Part shown: positions 15,955 to 21,287 of the stretch, in pieces
Position numbering within the stretch: the stretch's first letter is position 1
Layout: each line of letters starts with the position of its first letter
Source of the DNA: Terriglobales bacterium
GTDB lineage: Bacteria > Acidobacteriota > Terriglobia > Terriglobales > Acidobacteriaceae
DNA: 43,211 bases
Assembly (NCBI GenBank): GCA_035454605.1
Contig: DATIGQ010000137.1
Location: 1 to 43,211 of the forward strand
Direction of reading: 5' to 3'
Position numbers and translations under genes: made by a program
The notes under the pieces: generated by a model
Told to the model about the DNA's origin: nothing
The model's database searches: none
Seen by the model: only the letters and a program-made list of their open reading frames with translations

Positions 15955-16839
15955 CTAGCCATTGTTGCGCTTGCGCATCCTACTAAGCCTCGCTGGAGAT
16001 TGAAAATGGAGAGGATCTCTGAGGTTTTGCAGTTCACGGTAATAATAGAGCGCCGTGGGTCGCTTTCCCTGGATTCTCAGTTTCTTTAGAAACTCGATTT
16101 CCTCTTCCGACGCATCAGCACTGAGCGCGCGATTGCGAAGGAATTCTTTGAGGCCCGGCTCCTCTAAGGGCTGGACTTCCTGCTCAACAAACTCGAGTTT
16201 CTTGAAATTCGCTGGCACTAGCCTCCGGTTCAGGACAACCTCCATACGAAAAGTCAAAAGGTCGATGTCCCAGGATTCAATGAGCGGATCCAGGAAAGAT
16301 GTGCAGTTTTCAACGGAGAGATTGGAGATATCGGCATCCAGGAACTCAAGGGTGCTGGCGCGCATCTGTTGGCGGCTTCGGTGGCTCAGGCGAGCCACCA
16401 GGCGAAGCCAGGGTTCGCTTGCCAGTTTTTCGCGGGCGACATTCTTGGCCACTTCCAGGAGCTTTTGTGTGACCAGACGTTCGAGTTCGCCGAAGGGCTG
16501 CTTCTCAAAGATGGCACGTGCCTGGTTTCTCTTGGCAGGAACGCACTTTCGCAGAATCAGCTCCCGCACTTCCCTAAACAACGGGTCGGTGGGACCGAGT
16601 TTCTTCTTGATTTCCTCTGTGCGCTGCAGTTCGGCCATCCTAGAGAGCTCACCCTTGGGAAGCCTCAAGAAAGCTCCGATTCTTTCGTAGAGCTTTGTCC
16701 GTTCGGGCGCCGGGGGCGCCTTTTTCCCTGTCAACAACTGAGAGATGTAGGACTCGGTAACGTGGGCGGCGATCGCCAAATCCCGTTGCTCGAGGCCGAG
16801 CTTGCGAAGCCGGCGCCGGATCACCAAGGTCACATCCAC
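15955..16839 (-). CDS. HTH (XRE-like) transcriptional regulator with a long helical C-terminal domain
   Basis: A 294-residue protein with an N-terminal helix-turn-helix at about residues 14-45: LEQRDLAIAAHVTESYISQL, then LTGKKAPP. This is the Cro/C1 type. The remaining 240 residues are mostly helical and charged, with no domain I recognise; they may sense a ligand or oligomerise. I start at the GTG at 16839, which has GGAG seven bases upstream. The frame extends to an ATG at 16896, but that start has no ribosome-binding site and would put a palindrome inside the gene. Two palindromes (16866-16883 and 16922-16944) lie between it and the divergent genes and are natural operators for it. Base composition is more A+T-rich than its neighbours, consistent with acquired DNA. 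Confidence 0.7.
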   Translation of the reverse strand: MDVTLVIRRRLRKLGLEQRDLAIAAHVTESYISQLLTGKKAPPAPERTKLYERIGAFLRLPKGELSRMAELQRTEEIKKKLGPTDPLFREVRELILRKCVPAKRNQARAIFEKQPFGELERLVTQKLLEVAKNVAREKLASEPWLRLVARLSHRSRQQMRASTLEFLDADISNLSVENCTSFLDPLIESWDIDLLTFRMEVVLNRRLVPANFKKLEFVEQEVQPLEEPGLKEFLRNRALSADASEEEIEFLKKLRIQGKRPTALYYYRELQNLRDPLHFQSPARLSRMRKRNNG

Positions 16840-16865
16840 GGCGGTTCTCCGATTGAAGCGGTGGG

Positions 16866-16883
16866 TTAACCAAATATGGTTAA
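16866..16883. promoter_or_regulatory. Perfect palindrome upstream of the HTH gene, candidate operator
   Basis: TTAACCA-AATA-TGGTTAA has two perfect 7-base arms around a 4-base centre. It lies 27 bases before the GTG at 16839, downstream of a possible minus-strand promoter (TTGCTT, 16 bases, TATATG). The position fits autorepression by the HTH protein. Confidence 0.55.
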
Positions 16884-16909
16884 GCAAATCAAACATATAC
16901 TGAAATAGA

Positions 16910-16944
16910 TTGACAAAGCAAGTAAATCCAGGTAGGCTATTTAC
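16910..16944 (+). promoter_or_regulatory. Sigma-70-like promoter overlapped by an inverted repeat
   Basis: TTGACA (16910-16915) is followed after 17 bases by TAGGCT (16933-16938), the best housekeeping promoter in the window. The inverted repeat GTAAAT (16922-16927) / ATTTAC (16939-16944), with 11 bases between, covers the -10 box. A protein bound there would block transcription of the rightward genes. Confidence 0.6.
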
Positions 16945-16983
16945 ATGGGCGAGCGCCTCTGCTCACTCCTTCAGGTCTTCTGA
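16945..16983 (+). CDS. Possible 12-codon leader peptide at the transcription start
   Basis: An ATG at 16945 opens a 12-codon frame (MGERLCSLLQVF) ending in TGA at 16981-16983. It begins 7 bases after the -10 box TAGGCT, where transcription should start, so it could be translated without a leader. It precedes the 17042 gene by about 60 bases. This is a weak call from position alone; the codons show no attenuation pattern. Confidence 0.25.
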   Translation: MGERLCSLLQVF

Positions 16984-17041
16984 GCTAAGTCAGTTCATCT
17001 GAGTGCTTCCCCTTAGCCAATAGACAACCTAGGAGGTTGAC

Positions 17042-17362
17042 ATGTTTGCTCGCAACGTCTCCATGCATCTGAAGCCCAACACTCTCGCCGAGTTCACGCA
17101 GACCGTCGAAAAGGACGTCATCCCGTTTCTTCGCAAGCAGAAGGGCTTCCAGGACGAGATCACCTTCGGCATCCCTGGTGGAACCGATGTCATCTCGATC
17201 AGTCTGTGGGACAACAAAGAGAACGCGGATGCCTACAACGTCGCAGGCTACCCGGAAGTGCTGAAGAGCCTGGCCAGGGTACTGGACGGAACTCCCAAGG
17301 TTCGAGTTTCTGACGTCCTCAACTCGACCTCGCACAGAATCGCCGCTCCAGCCGGAGCCTGA
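17042..17362 (+). CDS. Small ABM-like (dimeric alpha+beta barrel) protein
   Basis: A 106-residue protein with the pattern of antibiotic-biosynthesis-monooxygenase-like domains. It has a first strand ARNVSMHLKP, a helix FTQTVEKDVIPFLRKQKGF, a strand ITFGIPGG, a strand DVISISLWDNKE, and a helix with a final strand PKVRVSDVLN. Such proteins form dimeric barrels; some oxidise aromatic substrates or degrade haem, others only bind ligands. No catalytic residue can be named. AGGAGG lies 6 bases before the ATG, and the gene follows a strong promoter overlapped by an inverted repeat. It is the first of four small rightward genes divergent from the HTH regulator. Confidence 0.65.
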   Translation: MFARNVSMHLKPNTLAEFTQTVEKDVIPFLRKQKGFQDEITFGIPGGTDVISISLWDNKENADAYNVAGYPEVLKSLARVLDGTPKVRVSDVLNSTSHRIAAPAGA

Positions 17363-17436
17363 GCCATAAGGCTTTCGGTGTTCAGATCGGGGGCGGGCAG
17401 GTTCCGCCCTCTCTTCCCTGAAACCAGGAGGTTTCA

Positions 17437-17793
17437 ATGCGTACGAAAGTGGTGAAATGGATTTGCATCGCGGCATTGCTCGTTCTCGCGATCCTGTGGC
17501 GCTCATCTTCCAACAGCTGGACTTTTGCGGCGGCCTGGTTGGTCTGGGCGGGTGCCGCCGTCGTTTCTGTGCAGGCGGCGCGAGTACATAGATCCGTGTG
17601 GGCTGGCGTCTTCTTGGCAATGTGCTTGCTTTTCAACCCTTTCGTACCCGTTTCCGCTTCCCCTAGTTCGTTCTTGGTGCTGTATTCAGTATGCCTCGCG
17701 ATGTTCCTCATCTCTCTGAGTGCATTGAACACCAGCCCAAGACTTTCCATTGCTTCGATCACCGATCGGACTCCGGGAAGCGAGTCGCTGTAG
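17437..17793 (+). CDS. Small membrane protein (DUF6804-like)
   Basis: A 118-residue protein with about four hydrophobic segments (near 6-22, 27-46, 54-74 and 78-98). A central LFNPFVPV motif resembles the conserved FNP-(x)-PV segment of small DUF6804-type membrane proteins. It has no known function. AGGAGG precedes the ATG by about 6 bases. It lies 74 bases after the ABM-like gene in the same direction and a few bases before the next one, so joint transcription is likely. Its role in this accessory block is unknown. Confidence 0.6.
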   Translation: MRTKVVKWICIAALLVLAILWRSSSNSWTFAAAWLVWAGAAVVSVQAARVHRSVWAGVFLAMCLLFNPFVPVSASPSSFLVLYSVCLAMFLISLSALNTSPRLSIASITDRTPGSESL

Positions 17794-17800
17794 TGGGGTC

Positions 17801-18292
17801 ATGATGGACCCAGCGAGTACACCTCGTCCTCCAGCCACCACTCAGGCTGGACTCTTCCGAATGTTGGAGTGCGCTGTAATCCTGAACTGGGAAGACTTGA
17901 TGCAGGCCGCTGCCAACTCAGGTTTGATTCAGATTGAATACCCAACTGGGCCTAGTGATTCGCTCGAGTATCTAAAAATCTGGTCCTCCGGAACCAGAGG
18001 CTACTGGAAACTCGTCTGTGAATACCAGATGTGTGCCCTTCCTTTGCATGCCAGGGGCTTGAGTTTTAGCAACGGCTACTACTCTGGGGATTTGGCCCAG
18101 ATGCTGGAAGTGGTCATGCAACATCAGGATACATTCGTGCGTCAGCCCAGGGGGCATGGCTTGATTCAAATCCATACGCCCACTGCAGGAGAAAGAGTGG
18201 CAGCCGACACGTCGATGGGCGACGTTTTGGACCTGGTCGCGTCCGACCGGCAGGATTGCGGTCGCCTTGAATACGAGGGGAGACTCGGATGA
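17801..18292 (+). CDS. Protein of unknown function in the accessory block
   Basis: A 163-residue protein that I do not recognise. It has no signal peptide or membrane segment. The N-terminal 20 residues are proline/threonine-rich. The central part alternates strands and short helices (LIQIEYPTG, then EYLKIWSSG, then YWKLVCEYQM), and later LSFSNGYYSGDLAQMLE precedes a second LIQIHTPT. The two LIQI segments (near residues 43 and 124) are an internal similarity worth noting. I start at the ATG at 17801 because the frame before it overlaps the upstream gene and GGGG lies just before. Its stop overlaps the start of the next gene (ATGA), so the two proteins are probably made together and may interact. 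Confidence 0.55.
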   Translation: MMDPASTPRPPATTQAGLFRMLECAVILNWEDLMQAAANSGLIQIEYPTGPSDSLEYLKIWSSGTRGYWKLVCEYQMCALPLHARGLSFSNGYYSGDLAQMLEVVMQHQDTFVRQPRGHGLIQIHTPTAGERVAADTSMGDVLDLVASDRQDCGRLEYEGRLG

Positions 18293-18720
18293 CAGACACC
18301 TTAAGAGCGGGAACTATCATGATGCGGGCTGGCACACTCATGCCGGAATCCTTGCGAGTAGAGGCCGAAGCCTACTGCCCCGCTTGGGACACGATGAAGG
18401 ACTCGGATGGCGATCTGCTTGATCGCAACCTTCGAGGCGTGGGCTGGAGCTTCTTCTTCCTCGCGGCACGCATTGAAGCGATGGGCTGGGGTTCCTGGAA
18501 AGAAAGAACTGTACGGCGAGCAATGAAGCGGGTGCTCGAGCAAGTGAAATTCTCGAATTTCAATTGCCTGGAGATAACGAGAATCACCGCCAAACGATTC
18601 TTGGGTCTTCCCTACGTGCACGTCTCGGCTCACTCCAGGCATATCCAGAAAGGTCACGTCTTGCAAGCGCATGCGGAACGAGGCCGAGCCGAAGTGGCTG
18701 CCGACTGGGCTCTAGGGTGA
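18289..18720 (+). CDS. Protein of unknown function, translationally coupled to the upstream unknown
   Basis: A 143-residue soluble protein of no family I can name. A second possible start (ATG at 18319, MMRAGTLMPES or the methionine after it) fits the N-terminus as well as the ATG at 18289; the latter is preferred for its 4-base overlap with the preceding gene. The central region is helical and basic (KERTVRRAMKRVLEQVK), and the final third has the ordered-looking ITAKRFLGLPYVHVSAHSRH. Several conserved-type aromatic and histidine residues suggest an enzyme or nucleic-acid binder, but nothing specific. It is the last gene of the block; 190 non-coding bases follow. Confidence 0.55.
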   Translation: MTDTLRAGTIMMRAGTLMPESLRVEAEAYCPAWDTMKDSDGDLLDRNLRGVGWSFFFLAARIEAMGWGSWKERTVRRAMKRVLEQVKFSNFNCLEITRITAKRFLGLPYVHVSAHSRHIQKGHVLQAHAERGRAEVAADWALG

Positions 18721-18895
18721 ATCCTCCCTGGGAGCCGCCGATGCGGATCTGTTTAGGTGGGCTGGCGTCGAGTTGACCGTGTAGTGGGATTCCCGGAAAC
18801 TGCCCCAGGAAATAGGCCCTCAAACTTCCGCGCCCGCCAATCGCCTGAGGAAGCTATCCCCTTGGTTCGCCATTGATTCCACTTGCGCCCCCGAC

Positions 18896-18901
18896 TAGCA
18901 T
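18896..18901 (+). promoter_or_regulatory. -10 box 10 bases from the second kinase start
   Basis: TAGCAT ends 10 bases before the ATG at 18912. No Shine-Dalgarno sequence intervenes, so a leaderless or nearly leaderless transcript is predicted. Confidence 0.35.
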
Positions 18902-18911
18902 CTCTGCCAAC

Positions 18912-21287
18912 ATGGCCGCCGCGGAGCCCATGATCGGCCGGACGCTGGGCCACTACCTTGTCCTGGAGCAGATTGGTGCCGGGGGCATGGGCGTGGTGTT
19001 CCGTGCCCACGACCAGCGCCTGGAACGCGACGTTGCGCTCAAGGTGCTGCCGCCGGGCATGCTGCACGACGATAGCGCTCGCAAGAGGTTTCGCGAGGAA
19101 GCGCTTTCCCTCTCGAGGCTGAACCATCCCAACATTGAGACCGTCCACGACTTCGACACCGAGGACGGAGTGGACTTCCTGGTGATGGAGCTGATTCCGG
19201 GCACCGGCCTGGACCAGAGGCTGCTTGCCGGGCCGCTGCCGGAGAAGGAAGTGCTGAAGTTGGGTCAGCAGTTGGCCGAGGCCTTGGCCGCGGCGCACTC
19301 GGAAAGCATCATCCATCGCGACTTGAAGCCGGGGAACCTGCGGGTGACGCCGGACGGCCGCCTGAAGGTTATGGACTTCGGCTTGGCCAGATTGTTCCGT
19401 GAGGTGGCCGAGACCGACATCACGGCCTCCGTGACCGCCAGTCAGGGCGCCACGGGCACGCTGCCCTACATGGCGCCCGAGCAGTTGCGCGGGGAGAAGG
19501 TGGACGCGCGCAGCGACGTCTGGGCGGCGGGAGCGGTGCTCTACGAGATGGCCACCGGTAAGCGTCCGTTTCCGGGCGAGCACGGGCCGCTGCTCATTGA
19601 TGCCATCCTGAACCGCGAGCCGAAGCCGCCCAGTGCGGTCACGGGAAAGGTCTCCGCCAATCTGGAGAACATTCTCCTGAAGGCGCTGGACAAGGACCCC
19701 AACCGGCGATACCAGTCGGCGAACGAACTGCGCGTGGACCTGGAGCGACTGAGCGCCAGCGCTCCGCTCACCATGCGGACGCGCCTGAGCGCACTGCGTC
19801 GCCGCCGGATGCTGGCCGTAGCTGCGCTCTTGATTCTGGTGGCTGCCATCGGGGTGGGAGCGAACCTCGGCGGCGTGCGTGACCGGCTGCTGGGGCGACC
19901 TGCAGCGGCGCTCAAAATCGAGTCAGTAGCCGTGTTACCGCTGGAGAATCTCTCCGGCGATGCGCAACAAGCCTACTTCGCCGACGGCATGACTGAAGCG
20001 CTGATCAACGATCTGGCCAGGACCGGCGCGCTGAGGGTGATTGCACGCAACTCGGTGATGCGCTACCAGGGTTCGAAGAAGCCGCTGTCGGAGATAGCCC
20101 GCGAGCTGGGCGTGGATGCCGTGGTTACGGGCTCTATAGTCCGAGCCGGCTCGCGTGTCCGCGTCACCGCGCAACTGACCGAAGCCCGGAGTGAGCACTC
20201 GCTGTGGGCGGACCGCTACGAGCGCGAGCTGCACGACGTCATCTCCATCCAGGACGAGTTTACGCGGGCGATTGTGCGGGAGATCAATGCGAATCTGAGC
20301 CCGCAGCAGCAAGAGCGGCTGGCGCGCGTCCCTGCCAAGGTCGATCCCGAAGTTTACGACCTGTACCTGAAGGGACGCGACGCGTTCAACAAGCGGGAAG
20401 GAGAAAAAGACGTTCAGCAGGCGCTTGCCTACTACGAACAAGCGATTTCGAAAGACCCAGCTTACGCTCCCGCTCATGCCAGCCTCGCCGAGGCTTTGAC
20501 CGCGGGGGTAGGGCGCGGCATGATCACGCCCCGTGCGGAGGGGTACGCACGCGCACGCGTGGCCGCCAGCCGTGCCCTGGAACTGGACGACTCACTGGCA
20601 GAGGCCCACTTGGCGCTGGCCGGAGTGAAAGGGGAGTGGGACTGGGACTGGGAAGGAGGCTTGCGCGAGTTCAAACGTGCTCTGGAGTTGAACCCCAACT
20701 ATGCCAACGGGCACTGTTGGTACTCGTCACACCTGAGCCAGATGGGACGCCACGCGGAAGCCATTGCCGAGGCTCGGCTGGGAGAGCGCCTGGACCCCTT
20801 CAGCCAGGTCTGTGGTAGCACTGTCGCCGACGCGTTGTTCTACGCCCGCCGCTACGATGAATGCATCGCGCAGGCACGCAAGCTGATCCAGGCCCGCCCG
20901 AACGCAGTAGGGGAGTATTTTGTTCTACGTGACTGCTATGCTGCAAAAGGGATGTTTGACGAAGCTGTGGCGGCCCTTGTAAAGGTCGCCCCCGTGGCTG
21001 GGACTCGGAAGGAGGACATAGCCGGCTACGAACGGGCCTACAAGACAGGAGGCTGGAAGGGCGCGACTGCCTACGATATCGAGTGGCGAAAGCGAGAGGG
21101 CTACCTCCTTAGCCCAAGCCACTACATCATCCTGGGTAAGTATGATAAAGCGCTCGAGCAGCTTGAGAAGGCGGTGGACGAGCACCGCCTTGGCGCAATA
21201 ACCCTGAAAGTCGATCCATTCTACGATCCCGTCCGCTCACATCCGCGCTTCCAAGCGCTACTAAGGCGCATGAACTTCCCGCCCTAG
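18912..21287 (+). CDS. Ser/Thr protein kinase with TolB-like and TPR domains
   Basis: A 791-residue membrane-anchored Hanks-type kinase. The kinase domain (about 14-280) has the glycine loop GAGGMG, the VALK lysine, the catalytic HRDLKPGN (D137), DFG at D155 and the APE motif in MAPEQL. A membrane span lies at about 299-318. Residues about 337-450 form a TolB/FlgO-like domain (VAVLPLENLSGD, then YFADGMTEALINDLA), and TPR-type repeats follow to the end (AYEQ-like ALAYYEQAISKDPAYAPA; FKRALELNPNYA). Proteins with this layout are common in Acidobacteriota and are thought to be signalling hubs; the ligand is unknown. The start is uncertain: TTG 18873, ATG 18912 or ATG 18930. I chose 18912 for the adjacent -10 box. 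Confidence 0.9.
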   Translation: MAAAEPMIGRTLGHYLVLEQIGAGGMGVVFRAHDQRLERDVALKVLPPGMLHDDSARKRFREEALSLSRLNHPNIETVHDFDTEDGVDFLVMELIPGTGLDQRLLAGPLPEKEVLKLGQQLAEALAAAHSESIIHRDLKPGNLRVTPDGRLKVMDFGLARLFREVAETDITASVTASQGATGTLPYMAPEQLRGEKVDARSDVWAAGAVLYEMATGKRPFPGEHGPLLIDAILNREPKPPSAVTGKVSANLENILLKALDKDPNRRYQSANELRVDLERLSASAPLTMRTRLSALRRRRMLAVAALLILVAAIGVGANLGGVRDRLLGRPAAALKIESVAVLPLENLSGDAQQAYFADGMTEALINDLARTGALRVIARNSVMRYQGSKKPLSEIARELGVDAVVTGSIVRAGSRVRVTAQLTEARSEHSLWADRYERELHDVISIQDEFTRAIVREINANLSPQQQERLARVPAKVDPEVYDLYLKGRDAFNKREGEKDVQQALAYYEQAISKDPAYAPAHASLAEALTAGVGRGMITPRAEGYARARVAASRALELDDSLAEAHLALAGVKGEWDWDWEGGLREFKRALELNPNYANGHCWYSSHLSQMGRHAEAIAEARLGERLDPFSQVCGSTVADALFYARRYDECIAQARKLIQARPNAVGEYFVLRDCYAAKGMFDEAVAALVKVAPVAGTRKEDIAGYERAYKTGGWKGATAYDIEWRKREGYLLSPSHYIILGKYDKALEQLEKAVDEHRLGAITLKVDPFYDPVRSHPRFQALLRRMNFPP

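Follow-up and report, generated by a model that had tools for sequence, protein, structure and literature searches.

Gene content and organization of the locus

We analyzed a stretch of 43,211 nucleotides (hereafter the window; contig DATIGQ010000137.1 of assembly GCA_035454605.1) from a Terriglobales bacterium of the family Acidobacteriaceae. A five-gene block in this stretch consists of a leftward gene for an XRE-type regulator and four small rightward genes, the first of which encodes a protein with a predicted ABM fold and is preceded by a conserved leader, probably an RNA element, that is the main subject of this report (Table 1). Loci (L), genomes (G), contigs (C) and families (f) are referred to by our own numbers where needed.

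The layout proposed in the first-pass annotation, with a helix-turn-helix (HTH) gene facing left and four small genes facing right, was confirmed, and both palindromes that it placed between the HTH and ABM genes are present. The block is also richer in A+T, as had been noticed: G+C is 53-56% in 1-kb windows between 16.0 and 18.5 kb and approximately 60-67% elsewhere (apart from 33-34.5 kb, where it falls to 59%), and gene by gene it is 0.547-0.573 for the five block genes vs 0.616-0.654 for five flanking genes; a GC3 value for the H-PPase gene, taken out of frame, was left aside. The ABM-operon promoter had been called the best sigma-70 promoter of the window, a ranking that the scan does not bear out, given that its -10 box is below scan strength and eight others are listed (positions 1-40000); the promoter itself is supported by comparison with other leader copies. 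The suggestion of a compact, regulated and undescribed unit stands: no account of the leader or the unit was found in the open-access literature searched, subscription journals and preprints being outside the scope. The suspected link to defence or mobile cassettes was not supported; PADLOC has no match for the four rightward genes and no tRNA genes were found in the window. Specifically, PADLOC gave three HTH-type regulator matches (E 5e-4 to 0.06) and none for ABM, DUF6804, U4 or U5, and since PADLOC, PHROGs and NCBIfam together returned HTH-type and weak matches only, a defence or mobile-element reading was rejected. The earlier reading overlooked the structured leader upstream of ABM; this feature is more unusual than the unit itself and extends far past this locus.

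Table 1 Features of the regulator-ABM block (positions in the window; nt, nucleotides; aa, amino acids; ORF, open reading frame)
Feature	Position	Strand	Remarks
XRE-type regulator ORF	15955-16896	-	probable start GTG 16839 (15955..16839)
Candidate operator O1, TTAACCAAATATGGTTAA	16866..16883	.	palindrome, TTAACC-N6-GGTTAA
ABM-operon promoter, TTGACA-N17-TAGGCT	16910..16938	+	-35 at 16910, -10 at 16933
Second palindrome, GTAAAT-N11-ATTTAC	16922..16944	.	candidate second operator (inferred); covers the -10 box
Putative leader RNA, ~95 nt	16947..17041	+	covariance model match 16937-17044, 82.4 bits (window sequence is a member of the training set)
P1 stem (variable)	16947-16953/16962-16968	+
Near-invariant hairpin	16970-16976/16997-17003 and 16980-16983/16990-16993	+
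Hairpin loop, GCTAAG	16984-16989	+	consensus (A/G)CUAAG
Putative pseudoknot strand, CTTAG	17012-17016	+	complementary to the loop
Shine-Dalgarno (SD)	17031-17036	+	inside CAACC/GGTTG hairpin 17025-17039
ABM-fold protein (predicted), 106 aa	17042-17362	+	ATG 17042
DUF6804 small membrane protein	17437-17793	+	PF20619, E 9.3e-10
U4, uncharacterised, 163 aa	17801-18292	+	relatives near ABM, U5 or DUF6804
U5, uncharacterised, 143 aa	18289-18720	+	4-base overlap with U4

Architecture and distribution of the leader

A promoter of the form TTGAC-N16-18-TANNNT lies upstream of 82 of 135 distinct leader copies, with a 17-nt spacer in 76, and the GAG of P1 follows the -10 box at exactly 7 nt in 58 of the 135 (8 nt in the window). 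This phased spacing suggests that transcription of the ABM operon probably starts at the leader. The distance from the hairpin loop to CUUAG is 21-27 nt across copies. The CAACC/GGTTG hairpin around the SD is peculiar to ABM genes; other downstream families differ in sequence there. Two candidate features were discarded, namely a GAACU/AGUUC stem (only 60.8% of cells paired) and a conserved upstream ORF, the alignments reading CTGAACTAAG..TCTGA with stops in three frames.

ABM relatives are present in 71 of 150 genomes of the window's family, and in the loci fetched the leader lies between promoter and start codon at 52 of 71 ABM places, one more being cut by a contig end. A covariance model of the leader (R1) matches at least 72 of the 150 genomes, with up to 10 copies per genome. 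The family scan lists 150 matches; it and the scan of a phylum sample used stricter filters, and their counts are lower bounds. In the phylum sample at least 19 of 396 genomes match R1, ten of them outside the family and five of those ten weakly (37-50 bits, f26). Scanning 84,980 species with a sequence pattern gave at least 118 stretches, and among the matches listed all 118 are from Acidobacteriota (87 from Terriglobia, 31 without class); its genomes overlap with the family set, so that this census is not fully independent. Named carriers are Acidobacteriaceae bacterium KBS 83, where the leader stands before ABM and HSP20 genes, and Edaphobacter aggregans DSM 19364, where it stands before HSP20. 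As in riboswitches, a conserved structured 5' leader is found upstream of putatively regulated genes. Rfam 15 gave no match at E <= 5 for the window stretch and five loci, none reaching the gathering threshold, and when two single leaders were searched at E <= 10 the five matches obtained were sub-threshold and fell on the opposite strand; the leader would be an RNA class absent from Rfam.

Within the window's own genome a DNA search with the block found a second place (contig C135, 72% identity), where the identity spans the first part of another ABM gene and approximately 75 upstream bases; this second leader-ABM copy (L091, G000) has no adjoining regulator in the stretch read. One viral contig (L345, IMG/VR, 66.8 kb) holds a leader copy from about position 475, and the ORF behind it has an HSP20-like first half that runs into CxxCxG zinc-finger-like repeats. 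Two loci from different genera (L215 in G108, L216 in G104) do not differ in the leader or in at least 300 bases downstream of it, which could reflect either recent transfer or bin contamination.

Genes behind the leader

For the gene census, 156 model matches were reduced to 152 copies by leaving out three cut copies (one a duplicate place) and one 27-bit match; in the later copy sets a regular expression missed 17 of the 152 and one was a duplicate, while five weak matches were left out elsewhere. A first gene directly behind the leader was assigned for 143 of the 152 copies in the fetched loci: ABM 59, HSP20 20, Ysc84/SYLF 16, DUF2934 10, a 67-aa unknown 6, DUF4440 4, a 71-aa unknown 3, U5-like 3, RRM 3 (behind weak matches, f26), DUF6804 2, a 131-aa unknown 2, a further unknown 2 and 13 singletons, e.g. 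a Crp/Fnr regulator, a carboxylesterase and an ice-binding protein. ABM is over-represented in this census because many loci were fetched for ABM. When 131 of the 150 listed family-wide matches were fetched, ABM accounted for 52 with one more truncated, HSP20 for 20, Ysc84/SYLF for 14 besides a fragment, and DUF2934 for 10, and the protein-independent pattern scan (127 matches) gave a comparable distribution, with ABM 40, HSP20 23, the 67-aa unknown 13, Ysc84/SYLF 12, DUF2934 9, DUF4440 5, no recognised gene 11, no ORF 6 and eight others. Going by HSP20 and certain other families, we read the downstream gene set as stress-type.

On two contigs of metagenome-assembled genomes (L228, L235) the leader and approximately the first 11 ABM codons continue into an unrelated signal-peptide-like Pro/Ala-rich ORF, which may be a sign of a leader captured by a new gene. 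At L053 (6582-6692) a leader precedes a broken HSP20 frame, and at L167 (4742-4848) one precedes an ABM frame that is truncated and has U5 behind it; leaders appear to outlast their genes.

The divergent regulator and its candidate operators

The regulator matches HTH_31 and HTH_3 in Pfam (HTH_3, E 4e-5). In an alignment of 18 homologues, which are 54-73% identical to the window protein, conservation sets in at MDV-LVIRRR, which is why the GTG in Table 1 is the probable start, and the C-terminal region is conserved as well. Full-length homologues were found in three of the 150 family genomes (four loci) and, in the phylum sample, at 15 loci beyond the family (a contig end cuts one of these); L361-L363, which are without a full regulator, are left out of this tally. 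An ABM gene lies divergently near the regulator at all four family loci and at 10 of the 15 others (14 of 19); the two genes adjoin directly at 13 of these loci and are 1.4 kb apart at the remaining one (L346). The neighbourhood on which the first-pass annotation had staked its functional unit is accordingly conserved in part: the divergent regulator-ABM pair spans eight families (f1, f19, f23, f29, f40, f49, f51 and f59), but there is no fixed five-gene order, all five genes being together in the window alone among the loci compared, with ABM, DUF6804, U5 and U4 recurring in shuffled order.

R1 matches the leader in seven regulator-ABM loci, i.e. the window, G059 and five outside the family. 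These five (L144-L148) are the clear matches outside the family, and in each of them (5/5) the leader has ABM on one side and the divergent regulator on the other, as if this were the older arrangement. Separately, L070 (G078, contig C125) carries two regulator-ABM pairs approximately 12.5 kb apart with both leaders diverged, and in one of them TTAACC-ATAGG-GGTTAA lies inside the former leader region.

The exact pattern TTAACYN6RGTTAA has a single place in the window's genome, that of O1. With at most one mismatch, TTAACY-N6-RGTTAA occurs in eight of nine regulator-linked intergenic regions (0-4 of 1000 shuffles were as good); in the ninth the site exists and is severed by the region boundary used. 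At the place of the second palindrome, regulator-linked relatives have TTAACC/GGTTAA sites. The natural reading of these patterns is that the regulator would act as a local self-regulating repressor. Moreover, the base after TCAG in the leader is G (GTTA, GTCA or GTTG) in six of seven regulator-linked copies vs none of 135 unlinked ones (p = 7e-10, which is overstated because leader copies share ancestry); the window leader, with TTCA after TCAG, is unlike those six. Together with the preceding bases it makes up, at several loci, an operator-like stretch (2-3 mismatches) within the leader, which suggests either that the XRE protein binds there too or that the RNA core grew from an operator.

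Evidence for an RNA structure

Two alignments were used, a MAFFT alignment of 52 ABM leaders (A1) and 119 copies fitted to R1 (A4). For a tandem five-helix structure the number of cells changed on both sides of a pair is 38 in A1 (21.1 +/- 3.3 when shuffled, 7-16 when slid) and 198 in A4 (68.9 +/- 10.8 and 15-58, respectively); for a version with a nested hairpin plus pseudoknot it is 29 vs 17.5 (A1) and 102 vs 39.6 (A4). Most of these cells sit in P1, and on A1 also in the SD hairpin, while covariation of the core is thin because the core hardly varies. G-U to A-C counts (P2 70:18, P3b 10:1, P3 5:3, P1 68:62) are near the expectation for independent columns and are for this reason not used as support.

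Without any alignment, CTTAG is found downstream of CTAAG in 134 of 139 copies. Seven of ten readable 5-mer variants keep a complementary partner, four through compensating changes (ATAAG/CTTAT three times, two of them from one genome, and GTAAG/CTTAC once) and three via G-U; the three variants with no partner are L086, L052 and L193 (two rows of the tally were unreadable and L055 was wrongly anchored). In 133 of 135 isolated cores the lowest-energy fold is one long nested hairpin with CUAAG in its loop, and pairing of this loop with CUUAG would therefore form a pseudoknot; we consider the (A/G)CUAAG-CUUAG pseudoknot probable. The tandem-hairpin fold that was first used for R1 was set aside, its apical pair not being beyond chance (708 of 10,000 permutations) and the cores favouring the nested hairpin.

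Proposed mechanism

Taken together, our data suggest, with a probability of roughly 0.6, that the ABM operon opens with a cis-acting leader RNA shared by many, often stress-type genes, and is in addition under a local repressor. Structure prediction leaves the SD occluded for the most part, with a main partner that varies by gene family; in HSP20 leaders it pairs with the pyrimidine tract and CUUAG (0.58). CUUAG would then have two rival partners, the hairpin loop (giving the pseudoknot) and, together with the pyrimidine tract, the SD, and since it can pair with both we propose that the pseudoknot would free the SD. A signal, be it a small molecule, an ion or a protein, may be recognised by the invariant hairpin and stabilise the pseudoknot, thereby setting translation. 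The XRE protein would repress its own gene and the ABM operon, such that the repressor would gate transcription and the leader translation. CUCUUU after P1 was dropped as the main anti-SD sequence, its predicted pairing being low (0.01-0.17).

A more specific version, which we offer as a tentative possibility, is that the leader is a pseudoknotted riboswitch restricted to Acidobacteriota that responds to one stress-linked molecule or ion and sets translation of scattered stress genes (HSP20, SYLF, ABM, DUF2934 and others). It would have been born in an ancient XRE-ABM promoter, a third operator becoming the RNA loop, and have spread as a promoter-leader cassette with loss of the repressor.

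Several results weigh against the leader-RNA reading as a whole. Concerning the SD, the ABM leaders pair it with the tract and CUUAG at 0.15 only, compared with 0.25 for the linker and 0.16 for the first tract, and shuffling the tract barely alters predicted SD accessibility (0.18 to 0.23; 0.27 to 0.26). Predicted TAAG:CTTA pairing is low (0-0.18) when calculated with the energy model used, which cannot score a pseudoknot. As to covariation, A4 is biased towards the tandem fold since R1 was built with it, the conserved hairpin has no both-side changes on A1 and one such cell on A4, and the A1 pair-type counts are within those of shuffles (127/500 and 255/500). Folding of the whole leader is unremarkable (z -0.2 to -2.7, window -0.83), and the mean z of P1 against shuffles (-0.98, n = 124) is surpassed by that of the antisense control (-1.55), so that the test shows an inverted repeat and not its strand. 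The leader start is a prediction from promoter phasing. Finally, 18 of the 71 ABM places are without the leader, and in several regulator-ABM loci it is diverged or absent; these include both copies in G078, whose two regulator-linked ABM genes have no recognisable leader.

Alternative explanations

The conserved stretch could instead be a DNA cassette, in which a dimeric transcription factor, perhaps the XRE protein at linked loci, would bind two TCAG-N5-CTGA palindromes located just past the transcription start. Both hairpin halves are such palindromes, promoter and leader move as a pair, P1 has no excess of G-U over A-C, and the G after TCAG and the operator-like stretches described above fit the same idea. 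We nevertheless find it unlikely, given the compensating CTAAG/CTTAG changes across a spacing of 21-27 nt and the fact that 118 of 119 copies have a purine at position 45, opposite a U present in 117 of 119, as G-U and A-U pairing allows; in addition, full-length regulator homologues occur in three family genomes while the leader is in at least 72.

An RNA thermometer that melts on warming is improbable. HSP20 genes rank second in number in both the gene census (20/143) and the pattern scan (23/127), and in PMC4166951 ROSE elements are described as invariably tied to small heat-shock genes. Like ROSE and FourU elements as covered there, the leader precedes small heat-shock genes and would act at the SD site; unlike them, its conserved part lies upstream of the SD, it serves many gene families and no opening by heat is predicted. 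Predicted SD accessibility is nearly flat between 20 and 45 °C (0.12-0.32 vs 0.13-0.32 across gene groups), falling for DUF4440 (3 copies); the SD region differs from one gene family to another, and the conserved heat-labile SD pairing of such thermometers (for FourU, four U with AGGA) is not predicted. Moreover, PMC4166951 ascribes little sequence conservation to thermometers, and the majority of genes behind the leader are not heat-shock genes.

We regard as improbable that, instead of being a small-ligand aptamer, the core serves as a landing site for an RNA-binding protein or a small RNA acting in trans, or stabilises or processes the 5' end. An invariant unpaired loop, ACUAAG, a position at the extreme 5' end and downstream genes with no common metabolic pathway would suit such a site, but no candidate partner emerged, no search aimed at one having been made, and complementarity within the leader already accounts for the loop. 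Finally, an ordinary self-regulated accessory operon of toxin-antitoxin or defence type with an incidental leader is very improbable: the XRE regulator, the divergent layout and a weak couple_hipB match at the HTH (E 0.0013, below cut-off) point that way, but the leader stands before many unrelated families and, with ABM, beyond the family, and the rightward genes match no toxin or defence model.

Proteins of the block

Against PF03992 the window ABM protein scores E 0.03 (15.0 vs a cut-off of 23.1 bits), and 13 of 25 aligned ABM relatives match at E <= 0.01 (best 2e-7). Its predicted structure has a pLDDT of 90.9, Foldseek matches include LsrG, YgiN and SnoaB (best E 3.5e-7), and on this model the protein has the ABM fold (dimeric alpha+beta barrel type). 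It is like PF03992, LsrG, YgiN and SnoaB in fold and size, but unlike PF03992 members it is below the Pfam cut-off, and a search by sequence for solved ABM relatives gave none at E <= 0.01. U4 has no match in Pfam, NCBIfam, PADLOC or PHROGs and the scan found no relatives in named genomes; U5 matches no family above cut-off, has relatives in 48 of the 150 family genomes, and three relatives lie directly behind their own leader copy. DUF6804 also has its own leader copies elsewhere, and with own leaders and a changing gene order DUF6804 and U5 seem to belong to the same gene set and not to a single fixed operon. Downstream of the operon (18873-21287) the window carries a serine/threonine kinase gene whose product has TPR repeats and a TolB_N-like stretch.

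Among known systems the regulator comes closest to DdrO, the XRE repressor of Deinococcus, having an HTH and a short DdrO-like C-terminal motif (GL..FL.D..L, E 0.0098); VIA-align gave Z 8.4 over the whole length with a root-mean-square deviation of 12.5, a comparison informative little past regulator residues 1-95. The regulator model is of low confidence in its middle, and the protein is about twice as long as DdrO (chains of 129-132 aa). Peptidase_M78 (IrrE-like) had no match at E <= 0.001 in the window's genome (98% complete), compared with 7 of 14 control genomes, and DdrO-like cleavage of the regulator was rejected on this ground.

Relation to known RNAs and implications

The riboswitches preQ1-II and SAM-II are pseudoknotted and act on translation. 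The leader resembles them in being a 5' leader with an invariant core and probable loop-to-tail pairing beside the ribosome-binding site, and differs in that its gene set is not one metabolic pathway and that it has no Rfam match. Acido-1 and Acido-Lenti-1 (RF01686, RF01687) are acidobacterial RNAs listed as non-cis-regulatory in PMC2864571; the leader is likewise acidobacterial, but does not match them at E <= 5.

One RNA element before many unrelated genes would offer a handle on a gene set controlled at the RNA level. The loci suggest that an RNA element may grow from a DNA operator region and then move to new genes. Acidobacteria are common soil bacteria, and to our knowledge little is known about how they control their response to stress; since the leader is present in named strains, its role is open to test.

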